From contig CP076040.1 in NCBI GenBank assembly GCA_014529675.2, positions 1,736,001 to 1,800,000 on the forward strand: DNA of 64,000 nt, read 5' to 3'. Under the pieces are notes generated by a model. That model did no database searches. It was not told the DNA's origin and saw nothing but the letters and a program-made list of their open reading frames with translations. The stretch comes from Opitutia bacterium ISCC 52. Its GTDB lineage: Bacteria > Verrucomicrobiota > Verrucomicrobiia > Opitutales > UBA2995. The position numbers and the translations under genes are program-made. Below are positions 40,772 through 53,170 of the stretch, one piece after another; positions within the stretch are counted from its first letter, which is position 1, and each line of letters begins with the position of its first letter.

Positions 40772-41509
40772 ATGAGAATCTTCACCCTTCTTTTGTTTGT
40801 GTCTACCCTTGGAGTATCTGCTGAAACGGCTGAAGAAGCCTGGAATAGTCTCCTGAGTGAAAACTTTAAAAAGCGTGGGGCGTTTGCATTCGTCGAAAAT
40901 GACCCAAGTTTGCCGAATGTTTTTATTTATGGGGATTCGATCTCCATTGCTTACACGCCTACGGTGCGGTCTGAATTAGCAGGTGAGGCCAATGTCTATC
41001 GCTTGCATGTGAATGGGGGCGACTCATCTTCGATAATCCAAAAAGTGGATACGCTTCGAAGGACGATGAAGGATCATTGGGGTTTTGAGTGGGACGTGAT
41101 TCAGTTTAATGTGGGATTGCACGATTTGAAATATGTAGAGGGGAATAAGCTGGATAAGGCAAAAGGGGAGCAGGTTACCTCGATGGTCGAGTATGAAGCT
41201 AATCTTCGAAATGCCATTGGTTACTTCGTGCGGATCGCTCCCGATGCAAAGCTGATTTTCGCAACCACGACTCCTGTTCCAAAGGGAGAGCCGGGTCGTC
41301 ACGTGATCGATGCTGGTCGCTACAACCGGGTAGCATTACGAGTATTGAAAGACTACCCGGAAATTGAAGTGAATGACCTTTACGCGTTTACTCTACCTAA
41401 CCAACCAGAGTGGTGGACCAAGCCCGGCAATGTGCACTTCAATGAAGTAGGCTACACCGCTCAGGGGAAAGAAGTCGCTCGGTATGTTAGAGCGGCGCTG
41501 GGTAAATAG
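40772..41509 (+). CDS. Secreted SGNH/GDSL hydrolase
   Basis: 245 residues. Leader MRIFTLLLFVSTLGVSAE. SGNH blocks: FIYGDSISIAY with catalytic Ser56, NVGLHDLKY where the Asn block is expected, and NVHFNEVGYTAQG supplying the His. It probably removes acetyl or another small acyl group from carbohydrate. No clear ribosome-binding site precedes the ATG. A long inverted repeat follows the stop. Confidence 0.88.
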   Translation: MRIFTLLLFVSTLGVSAETAEEAWNSLLSENFKKRGAFAFVENDPSLPNVFIYGDSISIAYTPTVRSELAGEANVYRLHVNGGDSSSIIQKVDTLRRTMKDHWGFEWDVIQFNVGLHDLKYVEGNKLDKAKGEQVTSMVEYEANLRNAIGYFVRIAPDAKLIFATTTPVPKGEPGRHVIDAGRYNRVALRVLKDYPEIEVNDLYAFTLPNQPEWWTKPGNVHFNEVGYTAQGKEVARYVRAALGK

Positions 41510-41640
41510 AGGTCAGTGTTCAGGTGTCGGGAGTCAGGATGTAAAGACATATTTCACCGATCCCAATTACACCGGTGAGACGCCTGTGATACTCTAAGTC
41601 GCAACTATTACTGACACCTGACCGCTGAAACCTGACCTCT
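41508..41640. repeat. Long inverted repeat between convergent genes
   Basis: AGAGGTCAG-type left arm (41508-41537) and the arm ending CCTGACCTCT (41611-41640) are reverse complements at 24 of 30 positions. The interior contains ACCGGTGAGACGCCTGTG. It shares the CAGGTGTC/CACCTGAC core with the repeat at 60640. It lies between the SGNH hydrolase and the isomerase and may terminate both. Confidence 0.7.
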
Positions 41641-41648
41641 GCGGCTGC

Positions 41649-42602
41649 TTACTCCACCAACGCCACAGCCTTCTTCAAGGCCTTGATAGTCGCCTTGCTT
41701 GCGTCGTCGTCATCCAGGTCGCGAAGGGGTTGATTGAAAGGCTCGGCACGAGCCGGGCCTTCGTAGCCAATGTGGATAAGAGCTTCCATAAAGGGTTTGA
41801 GGTCGATGACTCCAGTCGCCATGGGCAACTCGCGTTGTCCATCTTGTTGCTGCTGTTTCTCAACTCCTTTGGGAGCGTCGTTCAGGTCGACGAGCGTTAT
41901 ACTGGCTGGGTCGAGCTTTTTGATCGCATCGGCGCTATCACCTGCTTGCCACCAGTGCCATGAATCCAAGACATAACCGACATTGGTGGTGCCGATGGCG
42001 GCGCAAAGTTCTTGGGTTTCCGCCAGAGTATGGACGAATGGATACTTGGCCCGGATGAGCAGGGTAGTGGTTCCGACGTATTCAAAGCCGAGGCGAAGAT
42101 CGTTGTCTTGAAGGATCTTAGCCACTTCCCAAAGGCGACGTGTATGCTGTTTAAAGTTTTCATTGTAGGTAAGGTCGGTATGACTGGGCATAAGCCAGGT
42201 GTTTACCCGAGTTAGACCTGCACGCTTCAATCCTGCTGCCAGCCGTGGTAGCTCCTTTAATCCCTCTTCGAATTTGGCTCGGTCTTTGCGGAAATCAACC
42301 GGTAGACCTGAGCTGCCCCAAACCAGATTCTTGTCCTTCATGTCGCCCTTCAGGTCGCTGAGCTGACCTTTACTCAATCCAGCGAGGTAACTCGACTGTG
42401 CTTCCACGGATTCGAATCCGTATTTTGAAGCTAATTCAATTGAGCGCTTTTGGTCGGCTTTGATGCCCAGGGCGCCTCCGACGAAGTTAATCGTGAATTT
42501 GCGCTTCGACTTGTGATGAGCGGCCATGAGTTGTGGGTCGAGTGAAGTGGAGGCAGCGAGTCCAGTGATTGCTGAGGTGCGAATAAAATCTCTTCGGTTC
42601 AT
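41649..42602 (-). CDS. Tat-exported TIM-barrel sugar isomerase/epimerase-like protein
   Basis: 317 residues. A Tat-like signal (MNRRDFIRTSAITGLAAST) precedes an AP-endonuclease-2/xylose-isomerase TIM barrel: KYGFESVEAQSSYLAG, LRLGFEYVGTT, NVGYVLDSWHWWQAGD, ITLVDLNDAP and GPARAEPFNQPL. The Glu, Asp, His and Glu positions fit metal binding in this superfamily. It should act on a sugar in the periplasm. It is divergent from the 42719 sulfatase, with about 115 bp between starts, suggesting shared control. Confidence 0.85.
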   Translation of the reverse strand: MNRRDFIRTSAITGLAASTSLDPQLMAAHHKSKRKFTINFVGGALGIKADQKRSIELASKYGFESVEAQSSYLAGLSKGQLSDLKGDMKDKNLVWGSSGLPVDFRKDRAKFEEGLKELPRLAAGLKRAGLTRVNTWLMPSHTDLTYNENFKQHTRRLWEVAKILQDNDLRLGFEYVGTTTLLIRAKYPFVHTLAETQELCAAIGTTNVGYVLDSWHWWQAGDSADAIKKLDPASITLVDLNDAPKGVEKQQQQDGQRELPMATGVIDLKPFMEALIHIGYEGPARAEPFNQPLRDLDDDDASKATIKALKKAVALVE

Positions 42603-42718
42603 AGGGTGGTTCTGATTGATGAAGCTTATACAAATGAAATATCTTCAGGTAAGCGTCAATGCTTCAGCAATAAGAGATTCGTTATCGACAATTTGTTATC
42701 CAAATTCGAGGTTTGGGT

Positions 42719-44596
42719 ATGAAGTTCTCACTCTACCCTAAGCTCTTCGTTCTTCTCTTCGGTTTTATAGTAGGCCTTCAGGCGCAAGATAAACCCAATA
42801 TTCTGTGGCTTTTTGCCGAGGATACATCGCCTTGGATGGGCTGTTATGGTCACGAGGTGAATAAAGGCCACACCCCGCATATCGATTCGTTGGCGAATCA
42901 GGGCGTATTGTTCAAGCGGGCTTATGTACCTGCTCCGGTTTGTTCGGCTTGTCGCTCGGCGCTTATGGGCGGGATGAACCAGATCCGATTCAATGCACAT
43001 GAGCACCGGAGTTCTCGCGGAAAGGCACCCCTGTTCCTGCCAGATGGAATGAAGCTGTTGCCTCAAATCATGAATGAGAACGGCTATTCAACCTTCAATC
43101 TGGGTAAAACCGACTACAACTTCGTGTTGGCTACTGAAGAGATCTTTACCTTCGACGAAAAACGTCGTGAACCGATTCCTTGGGACAAAATCAAAGCGAG
43201 CCAACCGTTTTATGGACAGATTCAAACCGCAGGTGGAAAACAGAATACAAGGAATTGGCCGGCGGACCGCAGAACTGATCGCGACTCGGTGGTTGTTCCT
43301 GCTGATTATCCAGATACGCCCGCGCAGCGCGAAGTGGTTGCGGAGCACTACGATTCCATTCGGAAGGATGATGATTTTATCGGAGGCGTGATAAAAGGCC
43401 TCAAAGAGAATGGTCTTTGGGAGAATACCATTGTGGTTTATTTTGGTGACCACGGAGCCAATCAACTGCTTAGACACAAGCAGATGCCAACAGAGGGAGG
43501 ACTACACGTTCCGTTTGCCGTCTATGGTCCTGAAAAATACGTACCCAGGAAAAAGATACGAAATGATTTAGTGGACATGCTGGACCTCTCTGCCACGACC
43601 TTGGCCTGGGCAGGTATTCCGATACCTGGAAATTGGGAAGGGCAGCATCTTTTTTGCAAGGGGTTCAAGGCGCGCGAATTCGTGGCCTCCGCAAAAGATC
43701 GCTTGGACCATACTATTGATCGGGTTCGTACTATCCGAACAGAGCGCTATCGTTATACGCGAAATTACAAAACCGATCGAATCTTTCTACAACCTCAGTA
43801 TCGGGATGGTCAGCCATACAATCAGGATTTTCATGACCTCTATCAGGCAGGTAAGCTTTCAGAGCGTCACGCTGAGATCTATTTTGGAGAGCGACCAGCG
43901 GAAGAACTCTATGACGTGGAAAAGGATCCCGCTCAAATGGTGAACCTAATAAACGATCCAAAGCTTGCGGATGAAGTTCAACGTCACCGCGAGTTACTCG
44001 ATTCCTGGATTGCTAAAGGTGATCATGGTGAAGGTGAAGAGAAGCTTCAGGAGTTGCTTGAACAGTCGACGAGCAGGTGGGCAGCCGTAAATCCCGAGTA
44101 TGAGTTAGTGCGCACCGACCACGATGGTGATGGGCTATCGAGTGAATGGGAAGAGGCAGTTGGACGTGACCCTAACGATGGTAAGCTTCAGTTCCTTTTT
44201 GATAATGGTGGTTGGCAGACTGAAGGTTGGAAAGGCGAAGGCAATGTGCCAAACATAGCCGGTTACCTCGGCTATCTTGATTTTAATCTGCCCGATGGGG
44301 AGGGCTCTATTGTTCGCGGGGGACTCAATGTAGATGCTGCCAAGAATAGTGGTCAGCTTGAAATTAAAGCAAAAGCTTCTTTCCCTGTACTGGCATGGTT
44401 ATCGGCTGAGAACGAGGCTGGGGAAGTTAATCGTATCGCAGGCCCTATAACCCTTAAAAAGAGCAAGGGATTTAAAGACTATGGCATCGACCTCACTGGC
44501 AATCCAAATTGGAAAGGATCGATCCAATCACTGAAATTATCTTTTCAGGGTGAGCCGGGTGTGTTGGTTGAGATAGATTCCATCAAAGCACTGTAA
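42719..44596 (+). CDS. Secreted sulfatase with CSACR motif and Ca-binding-like tail
   Basis: About 625 residues from ATG 42719; a TTG 6 bp earlier is in frame. Leader LFVLLFGFIVGLQAQ, then NILWLFAEDTSPWMGCYG and VCSACRSALMGG. The maturation motif has Ala in place of the usual Pro (C-S-A-C-R), with Cys75 as the formylglycine site; a late YFGDHGANQL motif follows. This is the heparan N-sulfatase-like (sulfamidase) group. Near residue 465 DHDGDGLSSEWEEAVGRDPN resembles a thrombospondin-3-type calcium site, followed by a C-terminal beta-rich domain of about 130 residues. It might bind polysaccharide. Confidence 0.88.
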   Translation: MKFSLYPKLFVLLFGFIVGLQAQDKPNILWLFAEDTSPWMGCYGHEVNKGHTPHIDSLANQGVLFKRAYVPAPVCSACRSALMGGMNQIRFNAHEHRSSRGKAPLFLPDGMKLLPQIMNENGYSTFNLGKTDYNFVLATEEIFTFDEKRREPIPWDKIKASQPFYGQIQTAGGKQNTRNWPADRRTDRDSVVVPADYPDTPAQREVVAEHYDSIRKDDDFIGGVIKGLKENGLWENTIVVYFGDHGANQLLRHKQMPTEGGLHVPFAVYGPEKYVPRKKIRNDLVDMLDLSATTLAWAGIPIPGNWEGQHLFCKGFKAREFVASAKDRLDHTIDRVRTIRTERYRYTRNYKTDRIFLQPQYRDGQPYNQDFHDLYQAGKLSERHAEIYFGERPAEELYDVEKDPAQMVNLINDPKLADEVQRHRELLDSWIAKGDHGEGEEKLQELLEQSTSRWAAVNPEYELVRTDHDGDGLSSEWEEAVGRDPNDGKLQFLFDNGGWQTEGWKGEGNVPNIAGYLGYLDFNLPDGEGSIVRGGLNVDAAKNSGQLEIKAKASFPVLAWLSAENEAGEVNRIAGPITLKKSKGFKDYGIDLTGNPNWKGSIQSLKLSFQGEPGVLVEIDSIKAL

Positions 44597-44808
44597 TAGA
44601 CTTCAGAAATTCAGTGGCCCCATCGTTTTCAATTCGAAGCGGGAGTGCCTTTCTTTACGCTTTGTTACCAATCCGGAGGCTCATCTTTGCGGTCGTTCTC
44701 TGAAACTAAGGGTATTTGTTAAGCGGTTGCTAATTCTTAAAGAGATCTTACTTCGAAATTCCGGATGGTATAGAATTCATCTACACCGGTTTGAAAATTA
44801 GTAATTGT

Positions 44809-45183
44809 ATGTTTGTTACCTTTAGAAAACTTAATCTCTCCAACTTCGATCTTCGGCATCTGGATTATAGAGAAACCGCGATTAGTGCAGCTGTTGGACT
44901 TGTCGGCCTATCCATTGTTTTACTTTCCTTGTTTGGAACTACTTACCTAATGGATCTGGTAGATTCTGAGAATCAACTGTCCTATCTAAAGATCCTGATG
45001 TGTTCTTTAGGTATATTTACCATCGGACTGGCCTTGATCATTTTCTCCATTCATTTGGTGAAGAAGATCATATGGGGAGCCCTGGCTGCTCTACTACTGG
45101 TCTCTTTCGGACTGGGCTGCTTTGCTTTTGGAATATTCGTGAAATGTTTTCTGATCGGTTTCTTTAATCTCTATCATCGGTAG
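44809..45183 (+). CDS. Small protein with three membrane helices
   Basis: About 124 residues from ATG 44809; an in-frame TTG at 44791 is an alternative. A short N-terminal soluble part (LNLSNFDLRHLDYRETA) is followed by three hydrophobic stretches: AAVGLVGLSIVLLSLFGTTY, ILMCSLGIFTIGLALIIFSI, and a Gly/Phe-rich third segment (LLVSFGLGCFAFGIFVKC). I do not recognise a family. It stands alone between the sulfatase and the convergent ThuA-ankyrin gene. Confidence 0.6.
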   Translation: MFVTFRKLNLSNFDLRHLDYRETAISAAVGLVGLSIVLLSLFGTTYLMDLVDSENQLSYLKILMCSLGIFTIGLALIIFSIHLVKKIIWGALAALLLVSFGLGCFAFGIFVKCFLIGFFNLYHR

Positions 45184-45218
45184 GTTTAATCTCTCACTTA
45201 AACCGGTGGCCCGTAGTA

Positions 45219-46634
45219 CTATTCAGAAATTTCACTGAGAATTTTAACGGCTACTTCGTTCTCGTATTCTTTGGCGATGTCCAGCGCGGTTGTTTTGTGA
45301 TCTGAAACCACAGAGGGGTCGACTCCTGCATCGAGAAGCATGTTGATGAGTTCAGCATCTCCTCCGACTGCTGCTTCGTGCAAGGGCGTGCCTCCAGCTG
45401 CGCTTAGTCGCTTCACATCGGCACCTCCATCGATGAGTAATTTGGTAATCGTATTTCGATTTTTCGCCCCTGCCAAATGGAGGGTTGTCCAACCTTGGCT
45501 ATCGCGCACTCCGTAATCGACGCCTACCTTGATGATGGCGGCTGCGACCACGGGTAAGTCGCGATCGATAGCCAGGTGCATTGCTGTTTGGCTACGGGAA
45601 GTCAGAACGTTGGGATCACCACCTGCTTTCAGAAGCATCAAAGCCGCTTCGGGACGCTTGCGCATGATGGCCTCGTGAAGAGGTGTCATTTTGGAACGAC
45701 CCGGTGTATTCACAATATCCGGTGTTTTTTCCAGATGGCGTTTTACATCCTCGATGTCGTTCCGAGCGATAGCTTCGCTAATGGCTTTATAGCGAATGAG
45801 CCCTGAGACAGAGGAGGACACGCCCTCAGTTGGAATCTTAACTCCGGCAGCCCAGCTTATGCCATTCAGCACCTGTTTTCTGAAATCATCTTGTGACCAA
45901 TTATGATGAAAGTTCCCACCTGTGAGGGCAAAGCCTCTTCCTTTACCTCGGTTTTCCGATACCCAAGCCAGATGCTGAGGAACTTGATCTTGAAGTGCTT
46001 TGCGCAAGGCAGCGTTGCCGGAACGAGGGCCATCCTGACCCAGTTCATTTTCGGTAGCTTGAGTGGAAAGCACGGGTGTGATTCCCTTCATGCCCTTGCG
46101 GAATCGCATGTTAAAATACCATTCGTCTTCAGTCAGGTAGGGGCTCACTCCATTATTCACTGGATGATCCCCTAGTGTTACTTCTCGAAGTTCCCATTGT
46201 GGGTTAACGGACCAATCGACTTCAAAATAGCCACCTATTGAATCCAGGTAGAATTCGTTCATCTCTTGATCGGCTCCTTCCAGAGCGTAATGAAGCACGA
46301 CAATGCCGGTGCCAGCTTTATGCAGCTTTTCCAGCTCTTCGGTCTGGCCTTTGGCTACGTGAAGATCTTCACCATCTGTATAAATTACGATGGCATCTAC
46401 ATCTTCTAGTAGGGTTGAATCTGTAGGCCATCCTTGGCTCACTGTTGCCTGAACTCCGATGTCGGCCTCGTTGAGGCATGAAGCTAGTAATTCGCTACCT
46501 GCGACAAATTCGTGGGCATTCCAACCATGACTGGGTTCACCGGCGAGGAAGAGAACTGTTTTGTCTTTTCCGTAAGCGATGGCCGTGGCAAGGGAAAGGA
46601 ATAGGGCCAGGAACCTGCAGATCTTTAAACTCAT
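45219..46634 (-). CDS. Secreted ThuA domain fused to ankyrin repeats
   Basis: 471 residues. Signal peptide (ICRFLALFLSLATAIAYG), then a ThuA domain (TVLFLAGEPSHGWNAHEFVAG, DAIVIYTDGED, GTGIVVLHYA, NFHHNWSQDDFRKQVLNGI) to about residue 265. A C-terminal block of about five ankyrin repeats follows from residue 290 (MTPLHEAIMRKRPEAALMLL, TAMHLAIDRDL, TTLHLAGAKN, TPLHEAAVGG). ThuA is tied to sugar oxidation; ankyrins mediate protein contact, perhaps with the neighbouring dehydrogenase. The gene starts by a 4-bp overlap with the end of the dehydrogenase gene. Confidence 0.88.
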   Translation of the reverse strand: MSLKICRFLALFLSLATAIAYGKDKTVLFLAGEPSHGWNAHEFVAGSELLASCLNEADIGVQATVSQGWPTDSTLLEDVDAIVIYTDGEDLHVAKGQTEELEKLHKAGTGIVVLHYALEGADQEMNEFYLDSIGGYFEVDWSVNPQWELREVTLGDHPVNNGVSPYLTEDEWYFNMRFRKGMKGITPVLSTQATENELGQDGPRSGNAALRKALQDQVPQHLAWVSENRGKGRGFALTGGNFHHNWSQDDFRKQVLNGISWAAGVKIPTEGVSSSVSGLIRYKAISEAIARNDIEDVKRHLEKTPDIVNTPGRSKMTPLHEAIMRKRPEAALMLLKAGGDPNVLTSRSQTAMHLAIDRDLPVVAAAIIKVGVDYGVRDSQGWTTLHLAGAKNRNTITKLLIDGGADVKRLSAAGGTPLHEAAVGGDAELINMLLDAGVDPSVVSDHKTTALDIAKEYENEVAVKILSEISE

Positions 46635-48709
46635 TCTGCGCCGGTCGATGTATTTTCAGCGTCCATGGCTACTGCTGGAATCTCAATTCCTTGAATTCCA
46701 TTTCCGGCATCTTCGGATACAATTCTCGCATTCCGAATGTACACTGCGCCTCCGCCTCCAGATTTTGAAAGTTTGTGTATTTGAAAAGCAATAACACCTT
46801 CGGCTGTTTTTCCATCAATCATGTTGAGTGTAGGCACCCCATTGACCCAGGTGCGAAAATGATCTCCGATAGCTTCTATCCGGTAGTGGTTCCACTCTGA
46901 TTTGCGGTACGCCTTTTGAGCGTCTACTTTTCCTTCAAGTGAGTAGAGCCAACCTCTGCCGCCTTCTTCGTAGATCCCACCCGTCCATTGTCGTTCGGAC
47001 TGGTCGATTTCCATTTGGTAACCGTGCAGATTTCCTCCTTTGAAATTAGGATTACTTTGACCACGCAGCATAATGCCGGAGTTCAAATCACCTATGACTT
47101 TCACATCCACTTCGAGGATGAAGTCGGAGTAGGTTTTCTTGGTCGCCAGGTAGGTGAATGCTTCGGTGTCTTGTTGGAGAGCAACGATTGCTCCGTCGTC
47201 CACCAGGACTGTGGAGTTGCCATCGCGAGCTTCCCAGCCACTAAGATCACGTCCATTGAACAGGCTGGTCCATTGTGGCTCTGGCAATGGCACCATACGC
47301 CAAAGTGCGCCGGTATTGGGGGTGCGAGTATTGAGAGCGATATAGATGGAGCCATCTGGGGCTGAAGTAACTTCACGAACGCGGCCTTGTTTTTTGAGCA
47401 GTGTTTCGATGTGCGTTACCTTGCCATCTTCGATCACGATGCGTTGCAACTCTTCTGCAGACATTCCGGTTGCCAGTATGTTGTTTTTCCAGCCAGGGAA
47501 TTTGTCTCCTTCGTAAAAATCAATTCCGCAAGTGGCGATAGAGGGGAGCCAGTAGTGCACGGGTTGTTCCATGCCTTCCATGTGTGTCTTGTCGGTCCAT
47601 GGGGTGCCGTCGTAGTTCATGCCGTAAGTGATGACTGGCCAACCGTAGTTTACTCCCGGTTTTATTAGATTGAGTTCATCGCCTCCCCGCGGGCCATGTT
47701 CGGTTTCCCAAATCTCTCCTGTGAGCGGATGAAGGTCCAAGCCCTGCGGATTACGATTTCCATAGGTCCAAATTGTTTTGTAAGCGCCCTTGTCATTGTA
47801 GAAAGGATTTCCTTCAGGCACACGGCCGTCGTCATGAATACGATGGATTTTTCCATGAGGCACTGTGAGGTCTTGTGCTGGATCTCCTTCTTGTCTGTCT
47901 CCAATGCCAAAGAAAAGGTATCCGTCCTTGAATACAAATCGAGAGCCGTAGTGACCTCCCTTAATCGTATGAAATTGTGGAGGAGCTCTAAAAATCTCTT
48001 CTTCATCTACCCACTTGTTGTTTTTGATGCGTCCTCGAACGACCGCGGTCATGGAAGCGTCCTTGTCGTTAATTTTAGCACCTACGTGTTCGCTGAATGA
48101 GAGGTAGATCCATCCGTTGTTTTCGTAGTCAGGGTGGGGGGTAACTTCCAGTAGACCTCCCTGGCCGACCGCATGTACCTTGGGAGTTCCTTTGACCTCA
48201 GTTTTTACACCATCATTCAGGTGCCACAGAATACCGCTTCTTTGAGTTAACAAAGTGGAGTTGTCCGGGAGGAAGTTGATAGACCAAAGGATGCCTTCAA
48301 GTTCCAGGATCTTCTCCATCTTAAAGTTGTGAAGTTCTGTCGAGTAGACACCTCCCAGGGGTTTTACCTTTTCGAGTAAACCGGTGGTTTCAGCGAGCAA
48401 TTTTTGTTCTCGTATAAGAATGATGAGTCCTCGAATCTGCTCTTCGTCTAGGACGTCCTTCCAGGGAATCATGCCCATTTCTGGAACGCCGTTGCGAATG
48501 ATTTTGGCGATGTCGGCATCTGATCCACCGTATTTCCACACACCATCGATCAGAGAGCTTCCTTGACCTCCCTCCATGTTCTGTCCGTGGCAAGTAGCAC
48601 AGTATTGTTTGTAGAGATCCATCATCTCACCCGTGCCGATACGGCTTTGTGCGTGGGCGAGGGCAGGGATGAGACATGCGGTTATTAGGTAAGAAACGAG
48701 TTTGTTCAT
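46631..48709 (-). CDS. Cytochrome c - PQQ-type sugar dehydrogenase - DUF1080 fusion
   Basis: 692 residues. Leader MNKLVSYLITACLIPALAHA, then a c-type cytochrome domain with heme motif CATCH (Cys37, Cys40, His41). From about residue 120 comes a soluble glucose-dehydrogenase-like propeller (GILWSINFLPDNSTLLTQRS, GQGGLLEVTPHPDYENNGWI, GNRNPQGLDLHP, EHGPRGGDELN). From about residue 490 is a DUF1080 (3-keto-disaccharide hydrolase) domain (WTSLFNGRDLSGWEARDGN). It suggests sugar oxidation with electrons passed to heme, then cleavage of the 3-keto sugar. It overlaps the ThuA-ankyrin gene by 4 bp, so both are coupled. Confidence 0.9.
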   Translation of the reverse strand: MNKLVSYLITACLIPALAHAQSRIGTGEMMDLYKQYCATCHGQNMEGGQGSSLIDGVWKYGGSDADIAKIIRNGVPEMGMIPWKDVLDEEQIRGLIILIREQKLLAETTGLLEKVKPLGGVYSTELHNFKMEKILELEGILWSINFLPDNSTLLTQRSGILWHLNDGVKTEVKGTPKVHAVGQGGLLEVTPHPDYENNGWIYLSFSEHVGAKINDKDASMTAVVRGRIKNNKWVDEEEIFRAPPQFHTIKGGHYGSRFVFKDGYLFFGIGDRQEGDPAQDLTVPHGKIHRIHDDGRVPEGNPFYNDKGAYKTIWTYGNRNPQGLDLHPLTGEIWETEHGPRGGDELNLIKPGVNYGWPVITYGMNYDGTPWTDKTHMEGMEQPVHYWLPSIATCGIDFYEGDKFPGWKNNILATGMSAEELQRIVIEDGKVTHIETLLKKQGRVREVTSAPDGSIYIALNTRTPNTGALWRMVPLPEPQWTSLFNGRDLSGWEARDGNSTVLVDDGAIVALQQDTEAFTYLATKKTYSDFILEVDVKVIGDLNSGIMLRGQSNPNFKGGNLHGYQMEIDQSERQWTGGIYEEGGRGWLYSLEGKVDAQKAYRKSEWNHYRIEAIGDHFRTWVNGVPTLNMIDGKTAEGVIAFQIHKLSKSGGGGAVYIRNARIVSEDAGNGIQGIEIPAVAMDAENTSTGAE

Positions 48710-52450: not shown

Positions 52451-53170
52451 ATGAAAATGTCTATACTTCTACCTCTTATTACCCTAACGCTGGCGGGAGC
52501 CACTTTGGCTTTTGGCGCCGGTCATAAAAATGACGAAGGCTGGAAATCTGTCTTCAACGGCAAAAACCTGGAAGGATGGACTGCCAGTAAAGAGAATCCC
52601 AATTCCTATACCGTAAAGAATGGCAACCTGATCCTGAAAGGCGGACGCTCACACCTGTTTTATTCGGGATCAGTCGGTGGATCCAATTTTAAGAATTTCG
52701 AGTTGAAGCTTCAGGCCAAGACGATGGCGAATGCCAACTCTGGCGTTTATTTTCATACTAAATATCAGGATGCTGGATGGCCCGACCAAGGCTTTGAGGC
52801 TCAGGTTAATACCTCCCACAAAGATCCCAAGAAAACCGGAAGCCTTTACGCAGTCGCCAATATCTATGTAGCGATGAAGCCAGAACCCGAATTTACAGTG
52901 CGCGTCGACAAGTCAGGTGCCCAAATCTGGCAGGACCAAGCACCCTCTACGGATGGGGAATGGTTCGATTACCATATCATCGTTGTTGACGACACCGTAA
53001 CGCTCAAAATTAACGGAGAGACCATGGTTCAGTGGACACAGCCAGAAGGCTGGGAAGGTCCAAAGAATATGCCTGGTCGCGTACTTGGAAGTGGAACGAT
53101 TGCTCTTCAAGCTCACGATCCAGATAGCGAAGTTCACTACCGCAATATTAAGCTGAAGATTCTAGACTGA
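52451..53170 (+). CDS. Secreted DUF1080 (3-keto-disaccharide hydrolase) protein
   Basis: 239 residues. A leader (LLPLITLTLAGATLAFGAG) is followed by a single DUF1080 domain: WKSVFNGKNLEGWTASKENP, NFKNFELKLQAKTMANANSG, VYFHTKYQ, GEWFDYHIIVVDD and the end SEVHYRNIKLKILD. The fold is a concanavalin-type beta-sandwich; characterised members cleave 3-keto-glycosides. It matches the C-terminal domain of the 46631 fusion. It is convergent with the DUF2231-LRR gene. Confidence 0.9.
   Translation: MKMSILLPLITLTLAGATLAFGAGHKNDEGWKSVFNGKNLEGWTASKENPNSYTVKNGNLILKGGRSHLFYSGSVGGSNFKNFELKLQAKTMANANSGVYFHTKYQDAGWPDQGFEAQVNTSHKDPKKTGSLYAVANIYVAMKPEPEFTVRVDKSGAQIWQDQAPSTDGEWFDYHIIVVDDTVTLKINGETMVQWTQPEGWEGPKNMPGRVLGSGTIALQAHDPDSEVHYRNIKLKILD

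Follow-up and report, generated by a model that had tools for sequence, protein, structure and literature searches.

In rhizobia, the ThuA protein of the thu operon acts on 3-keto sugars. The DUF1080 family includes the 3-ketotrehalose hydrolase BT2157, and a DUF1080 protein has been proposed as a partner of the periplasmic lactose 3-dehydrogenase LacABC (PMC9007349); a DUF1080 endo-xanthanase has also been described (PMC10881899). As described in PMC6881810, soluble glucose dehydrogenase (sGDH) oxidizes sugars at C1 by hydride transfer to pyrroloquinoline quinone (PQQ), using His144, Arg228, and Asn229, and in the fungal protein CcPDH of Coprinopsis cinerea (cytochrome, AA12, CBM1) a haem domain, a PQQ dehydrogenase, and a C-terminal carbohydrate module follow one another in a single chain (PMC4332668). 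Bacteria of the Planctomycetes-Verrucomicrobia-Chlamydiae (PVC) group encode many ThuA, DUF1080, and cytochrome-propeller proteins, the joint function of which is largely unknown. Here we describe two overlapping genes, encoding proteins that we call P and T, within a 64,000-nucleotide stretch of the genome of Opitutia bacterium ISCC 52 (GCA_014529675.2; contig CP076040.1, positions 1,736,001 to 1,800,000; hereafter, the window). We propose, with a probability of about 0.5, that P is a periplasmic, C1-oxidizing quinohaemoprotein on which the ankyrin module of T docks.

Both open reading frames (ORFs) were verified on the minus strand, at 46631-48709 and 45219-46634. P (692 residues; 46631..48709) is a secreted cytochrome c-GSDH-DUF1080 protein, and T (471 residues; 45219..46634) is a secreted protein in which a ThuA domain is joined to ankyrin repeats (ThuA-ANK). 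In P, a signal peptide predicted by inspection (residues 1-21, AHA-Q; 48647..48709) precedes a cytochrome c domain (approximately residues 22-108; 48386..48646; Pfam PF13442 Cytochrome_CBB3, 8e-12) with its CxxCH motif at C37-H41 (48587-48601), a glucose/sorbosone dehydrogenase (GSDH) propeller (residues 142-461; 47327..48286; PF07995, 2.4e-116), a DUF1080 or 3keto-disac_hyd domain (residues 479-663; 46721..47275; PF06439, 1.8e-40; solved relative, 4jqt), and a C-terminal tail (residues 669-692, GNGIQGIEIPA...; 46634..46705), the match of which enters an ankyrin domain in a sister genus. The N terminus of T is also a signal peptide, as predicted by inspection, and is followed by the ThuA domain (residues 36-262; 45849..46529; PF06283, 2.5e-21) and the ankyrin domain (approximately residues 280-469; 45228..45797; PF12796 Ank_2, 5e-34). 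An earlier reading of the letters and ORFs (hereafter, the original prediction) had described this overlapping pair with these same parts, and the verified ORFs and Pfam matches agree with it; it mentioned neither the PQQ type of the GSDH domain nor the joining of the same ankyrin domain to P in the sister genus.

The strongest indication that P and T belong together comes from the sister genus. There, the G289 genome encodes one 883-residue chain that runs cytochrome c-GSDH-DUF1080-ankyrin, with no ThuA domain, while in G288 the P part and the ankyrin part lie at the ends of different contigs and the ankyrin ORF starts with IEIPA, like the tail of P. Both are assemblies of the metagenome-assembled type, and an assembly error at the same joint in two species is unlikely. 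A search of both genomes for ThuA-ANK genes found none (E value of 1e-30), and in our ankyrin tree the fused domain groups as sister to that of T (support, 99/97). Because the GIEIP of the P tail resembles the GVKIP of the ThuA-ANK linker, an in-frame deletion between the two would yield the fusion. That the sister genus has fused the ankyrin part onto P suggests that the two proteins P and T work together. The original prediction had a 3-keto-glycoside route assembled through ankyrin contacts; the fusion supports an ankyrin contact with P.

Within the genus, the relatives of P and T have the same architectures, at identities of 74 to 93% for P and 68 to 75% for T. Across the eight genomes of the GTDB family, P is full length in six (G000, which is the genome of the window, G294, G292, G291, G290, and G289), is a contig-end fragment in G288, and could not be found in G293, an assembly of about 900 contigs that is 88% complete. 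The pair is kept in five of six genus genomes, with T directly behind P in all five that have P. The P stop overlaps the T start by four bases, ATGA (46631..46634, minus strand), in the window as well as in G294, G291, and G290, and the junction reads TAATG in G292; since the relatives share the overlap, a frame error at this point was ruled out. All five genus members having both genes preserve their order and the start/stop overlap, in line with the coupling of the two genes that had been put forward originally, and translation of T would be coupled to that of P. Scanning for promoters and terminators did not mark out a clear operon boundary. In a comparison of the window with G294, the ratio of nonsynonymous to synonymous substitution rates (dN/dS) was 0.08 for the cytochrome, 0.05 for GSDH, 0.06 for DUF1080, 0.08 for ThuA, and 0.04 for the ankyrin domain, the last value referring to a partial domain (T of G294 ends at residue 382, at a contig end) with silent sites at a distance of about 2; pairs further apart were mostly saturated at silent sites. 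Given the shared architectures in the genus and dN/dS values of 0.04 to 0.08 in five domains, we conclude that the pair is not a product of chance.

The pair could still be an accident of local synteny, that is, two unrelated secreted sugar genes on one transcript with no shared function. Such an accident would fit the EEP, MFS, cupin, and DUF1080_b neighbors, which are also syntenic in several genus members, and the failure to find the pair outside the family. We regard it as unlikely, because the overlap persists in 5/5 members although its sequence differs and because in G289 the ankyrin part is in frame with P in a stretch that has no match to the EEP, MFS, cupin, methyltransferase, or DUF1080_b neighbors of the window.

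The GSDH domain of P scores 389 bits (family cut-off, 25). By sequence, its best solved relatives are 7cdy (glucose dehydrogenase; 3.6e-76) and 2g8s (glucose/sorbosone dehydrogenases; 4.3e-70), with sGDH chains such as 1c9u ranking lower. When parts of four solved chains were aligned with 44 cytochrome-GSDH rows, each of the three MAFFT modes put H253, R319, and N320 of P in line with sGDH His144, Arg228, and Asn229, respectively; unlike MAFFT, the HMMER alignment places sGDH His144 one residue off. The His, Arg, and Asn letters are present in 38, 44, and 44 of the 44 rows, respectively, and all three residues are invariant in six aligned P proteins. By sequence, the GSDH domain of P is of the PQQ aldose-dehydrogenase type, and because these residues of the C1-oxidizing site are kept, C1 oxidation would be expected of it rather than a 3-keto product. 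In the same six proteins C37, C40, H41, and M80 are invariant, Met80 being the likely axial haem ligand. A haem-binding motif (CxxCH) and a GSDH domain stand in one polypeptide, as the haem side of a quinohaemoprotein requires. The sugar oxidation with electrons passing to haem that was originally predicted is therefore plausible by domain content, with a predicted site of the C1 type.

The original prediction went further and had P both make a 3-keto sugar and cleave it. In that scheme the propeller would oxidize C3 of a glycoside, the haem would take the electrons, DUF1080 would cleave the resulting 3-keto glycoside, and ThuA would handle the product. The membership of BT2157 in the DUF1080 family and the proposed LacABC partnership speak for this scheme, as does the recurrence of propeller, cytochrome c, and DUF1080 in one chain. 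We nonetheless find it improbable, since the propeller is a GSDH of the C1-oxidizing type with its site residues kept, and a C1 lactone would be no substrate for a 3-keto-glycoside hydrolase. A better candidate for a C3 dehydrogenase, a LacAB-like pair, lies elsewhere in the genome. A GMC oxidoreductase and a Gluconate_2-dh3 protein (the families to which we take LacA and LacB to belong) are encoded at about 2.022-2.025 Mb in G000, next to ThuA genes; the whole cluster (G000:C1 ~2022363-2030387; L097 2463-10487) holds this pair, two ThuA genes, and a DUF7133-HEAT-cytochrome c protein. By its gene content it is a candidate periplasmic C3-oxidation locus resembling lactose 3-dehydrogenase. No LacABC-type C3 dehydrogenase set (GMC, Gluconate_2-dh3, cytochrome) was found at the P/T locus, where the dehydrogenase is GSDH. 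A 3-keto route may thus be present in this cell, with P not likely to be its C3 enzyme. The same genome carries an intact cytochrome-GSDH paralogue (G000:C1:2009443-2012183; L096 9363-12022), behind which lies a further copy interrupted by stops and frame breaks.

The cofactor of such a propeller is one that the host seems unable to make. PqqD had no match in the window's genome (one contig, 97.8% complete) and was over the cut-off in 3 of 14 control genomes, while PqqB and PqqE reached 29.8 bits (cut-off, 245) and 52.6 bits (cut-off, 381), in searches without a positive control, as both were over the cut-off in 0 of the 14; PqqA and PqqC were not searched. Given that PqqB, PqqD, and PqqE were not found, PQQ would need to be scavenged and, if P is active, probably comes from outside the cell. 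Escherichia coli likewise uses PQQ without making it.

The DUF1080 domain of P scores 139 bits (cut-off, 26.8). Among 25 non-redundant DUF1080 domains compared, P included, 43 positions are conserved in at least 60%; P keeps 37 of them and departs at 6, for example at residue 518, which is Phe in P and most often Asn across the set. All of the most conserved polar residues are retained (N543, R549, Y580, W606, N607, N623, Q643, and H645). These data bear on a further explanation, in which DUF1080 is only carbohydrate binding, P is a glycan-tethered quinohaemoprotein like CcPDH, and T is a co-expressed but separate enzyme. The order of parts in CcPDH would agree with this (PMC4332668), as would the Thermogutta DUF1080 proteins, five of nine of which have overlapping CBM66 and DUF1080 annotations (PMC5673643), the four relatives of P without a DUF1080 part, and the six departures from consensus. 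The retention of the polar residues and the endo-xanthanase activity described for a DUF1080 protein (PMC10881899) argue the other way, and we consider binding alone possible though doubtful. Outside the family, the nearest DUF1080 among the domains compared (49%) lies in a Bacteroidetes chain of DUF7133, HEAT, cytochrome c, and DUF1080 (L243), and another single chain (L152) has ThuA, DUF1080, DUF7133, HEAT, and cytochrome c; because these two chains unite like modules, the same kinds of partner modules appear to have come together on more than one occasion. The window also encodes a single-domain DUF1080 protein (52451-53170; 1.1e-40), 3.7 kb from P and kept nearby in G294, G292, and G290.

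In T, the ThuA domain scores 77 bits (cut-off, 33.4), and H36, H41, D87, H92, H115, D170, E171, and N257 are invariant in 13 aligned ThuA-ANK proteins. An AlphaFold2 model of T has a mean predicted local distance difference test score (pLDDT) of 89 and shows ankyrin helix pairs at residues 285-470. No solved structure matched the ThuA domain by sequence (PDB, E value of 0.01), and the best 50 Foldseek matches listed for T were mostly ankyrin and DARPin entries, with no ThuA entry among them. Other ankyrin matches in the window's own genome reach at most 34 bits against the ankyrin domain of T.

Ankyrin proteins can also serve haem enzymes: AnkB of Pseudomonas aeruginosa and Cj1386 of Campylobacter jejuni are needed by haem catalases, probably because they permit haem to bind (PMC7567364, citing Howell 2000 and Flint 2015). 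By analogy, the ankyrin part of T could be a haem or cofactor helper that matures or protects P and assembles no pathway, an idea that fits the sister genus, where the ankyrin part is fused to P and ThuA is absent. A P-like cytochrome, however, was matched at just 1 of the 26 ankyrin loci beyond the window, where ThuA, Gfo/Idh, TIM-barrel, and DUF1080 genes are commoner, and 18 of the 30 rows of the ankyrin tree (which excludes L126, at a contig end, L164, and L172) are ThuA fusions. Haem c is attached by the Ccm system, which likewise counts against a helper of this kind. We set haem delivery aside as the main role of the ankyrin part, and keep it as an improbable alternative.

Cytochrome-GSDH occurs at 58 places in 47 of 288 phylum genomes, and the DUF1080 part was covered only at the window's place, in a search whose 1e-60 cut would hide a separate, weaker DUF1080 piece; at 1 of 58 places, a common triple fusion was ruled out. 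The ankyrin subfamily of T occurs at 27 places in 26 of 387 genomes at an E value of ≤1e-25, a cut that hides weaker matches. Outside the window there are 26 such places, 14 with ThuA-ANK and 12 not joined to ThuA. In 7 of the latter 12 (one of them, L173, counted by a weak 26-bit DUF1080 match alone), the stretch holds Gfo/Idh, TIM-barrel, ThuA, or DUF1080 genes; the other 5 have none. Gfo/Idh, TIM-barrel, ThuA-like, and HEAT genes surround the ankyrin gene in G388, G172, G146, and G125, in a similar order in the first three and rearranged in G125, and an MFS transporter lies near it in G388, G172, and also G210. Matches at the source loci of our seeds are circular (MFS_k, AP2_c, GfoIdh_c, GfoIdh_d, GfoIdh_e, and HEATcyt from L159; ThuA_c from L165). 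Among 20 control stretches, placed by hand at round numbers and therefore non-random, 4 had Gfo/Idh or DUF1080 and none had ThuA or a TIM barrel. Because Gfo/Idh or DUF1080 lies near ThuA-ANK in 4 of 14 places outside the family, close to the control level, the link of the ankyrin part with keto-sugar genes is one of a few clusters and is not general. One ankyrin protein of the kind in T (436 residues; L172, 7038-8348, in G373) has the domain at its C terminus, behind an N-terminal part without a Pfam match.

Trees suggest an order in which these parts came together. In the ThuA tree (50 rows), 18 of 19 ThuA-ANK proteins form one group (100/99), which leads us to view ThuA-ANK as an old unit, probably recruited behind P. 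The remaining protein, from G115, stands apart and perhaps records a second event, in which ankyrin repeats of this kind were joined to a different ThuA, although its branch is long and its place unsure. In the cytochrome-GSDH tree (19 rows), the DUF1080-bearing L203, L204, and L206 (the sequence of which ends inside P) fall outside an 11-row group (97/98) made up of the genus (where T follows P), the sister genus (where the ankyrin part is fused), G223, and L208-L210, with its inner branching unresolved. This topology suggests that DUF1080 was added to cytochrome-GSDH first, that ThuA-ANK followed, and that the ankyrin part was then fused. The cytochrome-GSDH of G223, a genome of another GTDB family, is nested inside the window's family in the trees and possibly reflects lateral transfer; no remnant of P or T was detected in the 747 bases behind this gene (tblastn, below an E value of 1). 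Compared with window positions 40772-48709, the G223 stretch (L098, 1-10742) has GDSL, sulfatase, and cytochrome-GSDH genes in common, the last 77% identical.

Taken together, we favor the following mechanism. The propeller of P would bind scavenged PQQ and oxidize C1, the anomeric carbon, of aldoses or reducing-end oligosaccharides to the lactone, and the electrons would pass to the N-terminal haem c of P and on to the respiratory chain. In the same location, the DUF1080 jelly roll would either cut (3-keto)glycosides, the freed aldose being oxidized at once, or hold the glycan; oxidation would thus follow the cut, and P would not itself create the 3-keto bond. T, made by coupled translation, would dock on P through its ankyrin face and so bring to P a ThuA enzyme of keto-sugar metabolism.

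Several observations weigh against this reading. ThuA is gone in the sister genus and is therefore not essential to the assembly, and the AlphaFold2 model of P is poor (pLDDT of 44), so that no interdomain geometry, including the haem-PQQ distance, could be obtained from it. Wider synteny around the pair is common to the genus, so its adjacency does not amount to five independent events. Among the outer DUF1080-bearing relatives, no ThuA-ANK gene lies behind P in the adjoining stretch of L203 (about 1.4 kb) or L204 (about 6 kb), and G223 and L208-L210, from Opitutaceae or their kin, have cytochrome-GSDH without DUF1080 and without T alongside. Outside the family, the GSDH partner is absent from 13 of 14 ThuA-ANK stretches, two of which are only about 3.4 kb long; L167, with a cytochrome-GSDH piece ~6.4 kb from its ThuA-ANK gene, is the sole such case. 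The two genes lie about 160 kb apart in G223, on different contigs in G215, and about 3.6 Mb apart in G099. The missing positive control for PqqB and PqqE belongs here as well. The survey of the pair across PVC genomes proposed with the original prediction thus has a divided outcome: the pair is kept within the genus and, in the stretches examined, was not found adjacent outside the family, L167 excepted in part. Wide conservation of the pair in PVC bacteria was ruled out on the same count.

More broadly, and only tentatively, the secreted ankyrin subfamily may be a movable docking part of periplasmic sugar-oxidizing systems, found by itself in some keto-sugar clusters, joined to ThuA on what appear to be two occasions, and in one lineage fused to a cut-and-oxidize quinohaemoprotein. 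If so, cleavage, C1 oxidation, and ThuA chemistry would be united as one electron-harvesting assembly. The fusion in the sister genus indicates which parts may go together, and P and T offer a compact system open to experiment, with two soluble proteins, a naturally occurring fusion, and PQQ as a cofactor apparently beyond the host's own synthesis, and with opposite predictions for the product of P, a C1 lactone or a C3 ketone. A full-text literature search, outside which most subscription journals lie, returned nothing on ThuA with ankyrin (including under Verrucomicrobi) or on ThuA, DUF1080, and a dehydrogenase together, and we found no literature on GSDH with ThuA in this group.

Each part of P and T is nonetheless known from other systems. 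Like sGDH and E. coli Asd (PF07995; 7cdy, 2g8s, 1c9u), P has a propeller in which the C1-site residues His, Arg, and Asn are present, to which it adds its own cytochrome c, a C-terminal DUF1080, and the overlap with a ThuA-ANK gene. The DUF1080 hydrolases BT2157 and CCNA_01705 and the LacABC route, as described in PMC9007349, resemble P in setting DUF1080 beside a periplasmic sugar dehydrogenase, which in the LacABC route is a separate C3 dehydrogenase and in P a fused C1-type quinoprotein. AnkB and Cj1386 offer a precedent for an ankyrin protein that serves a haem enzyme; in the account of PMC7567364 the partner is a catalase, and no ThuA figures there. The PVC/Bacteroidetes-type chains L152 and L243 join the module kinds of P in one chain, with DUF7133 rather than GSDH as the propeller and with no ankyrin part. 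For CcPDH we know of no partner gene; it is fungal and differs from P in having haem b instead of haem c and CBM1 instead of DUF1080. In the order of its parts, the one feature we compared, the three-part plan of P is that of CcPDH.

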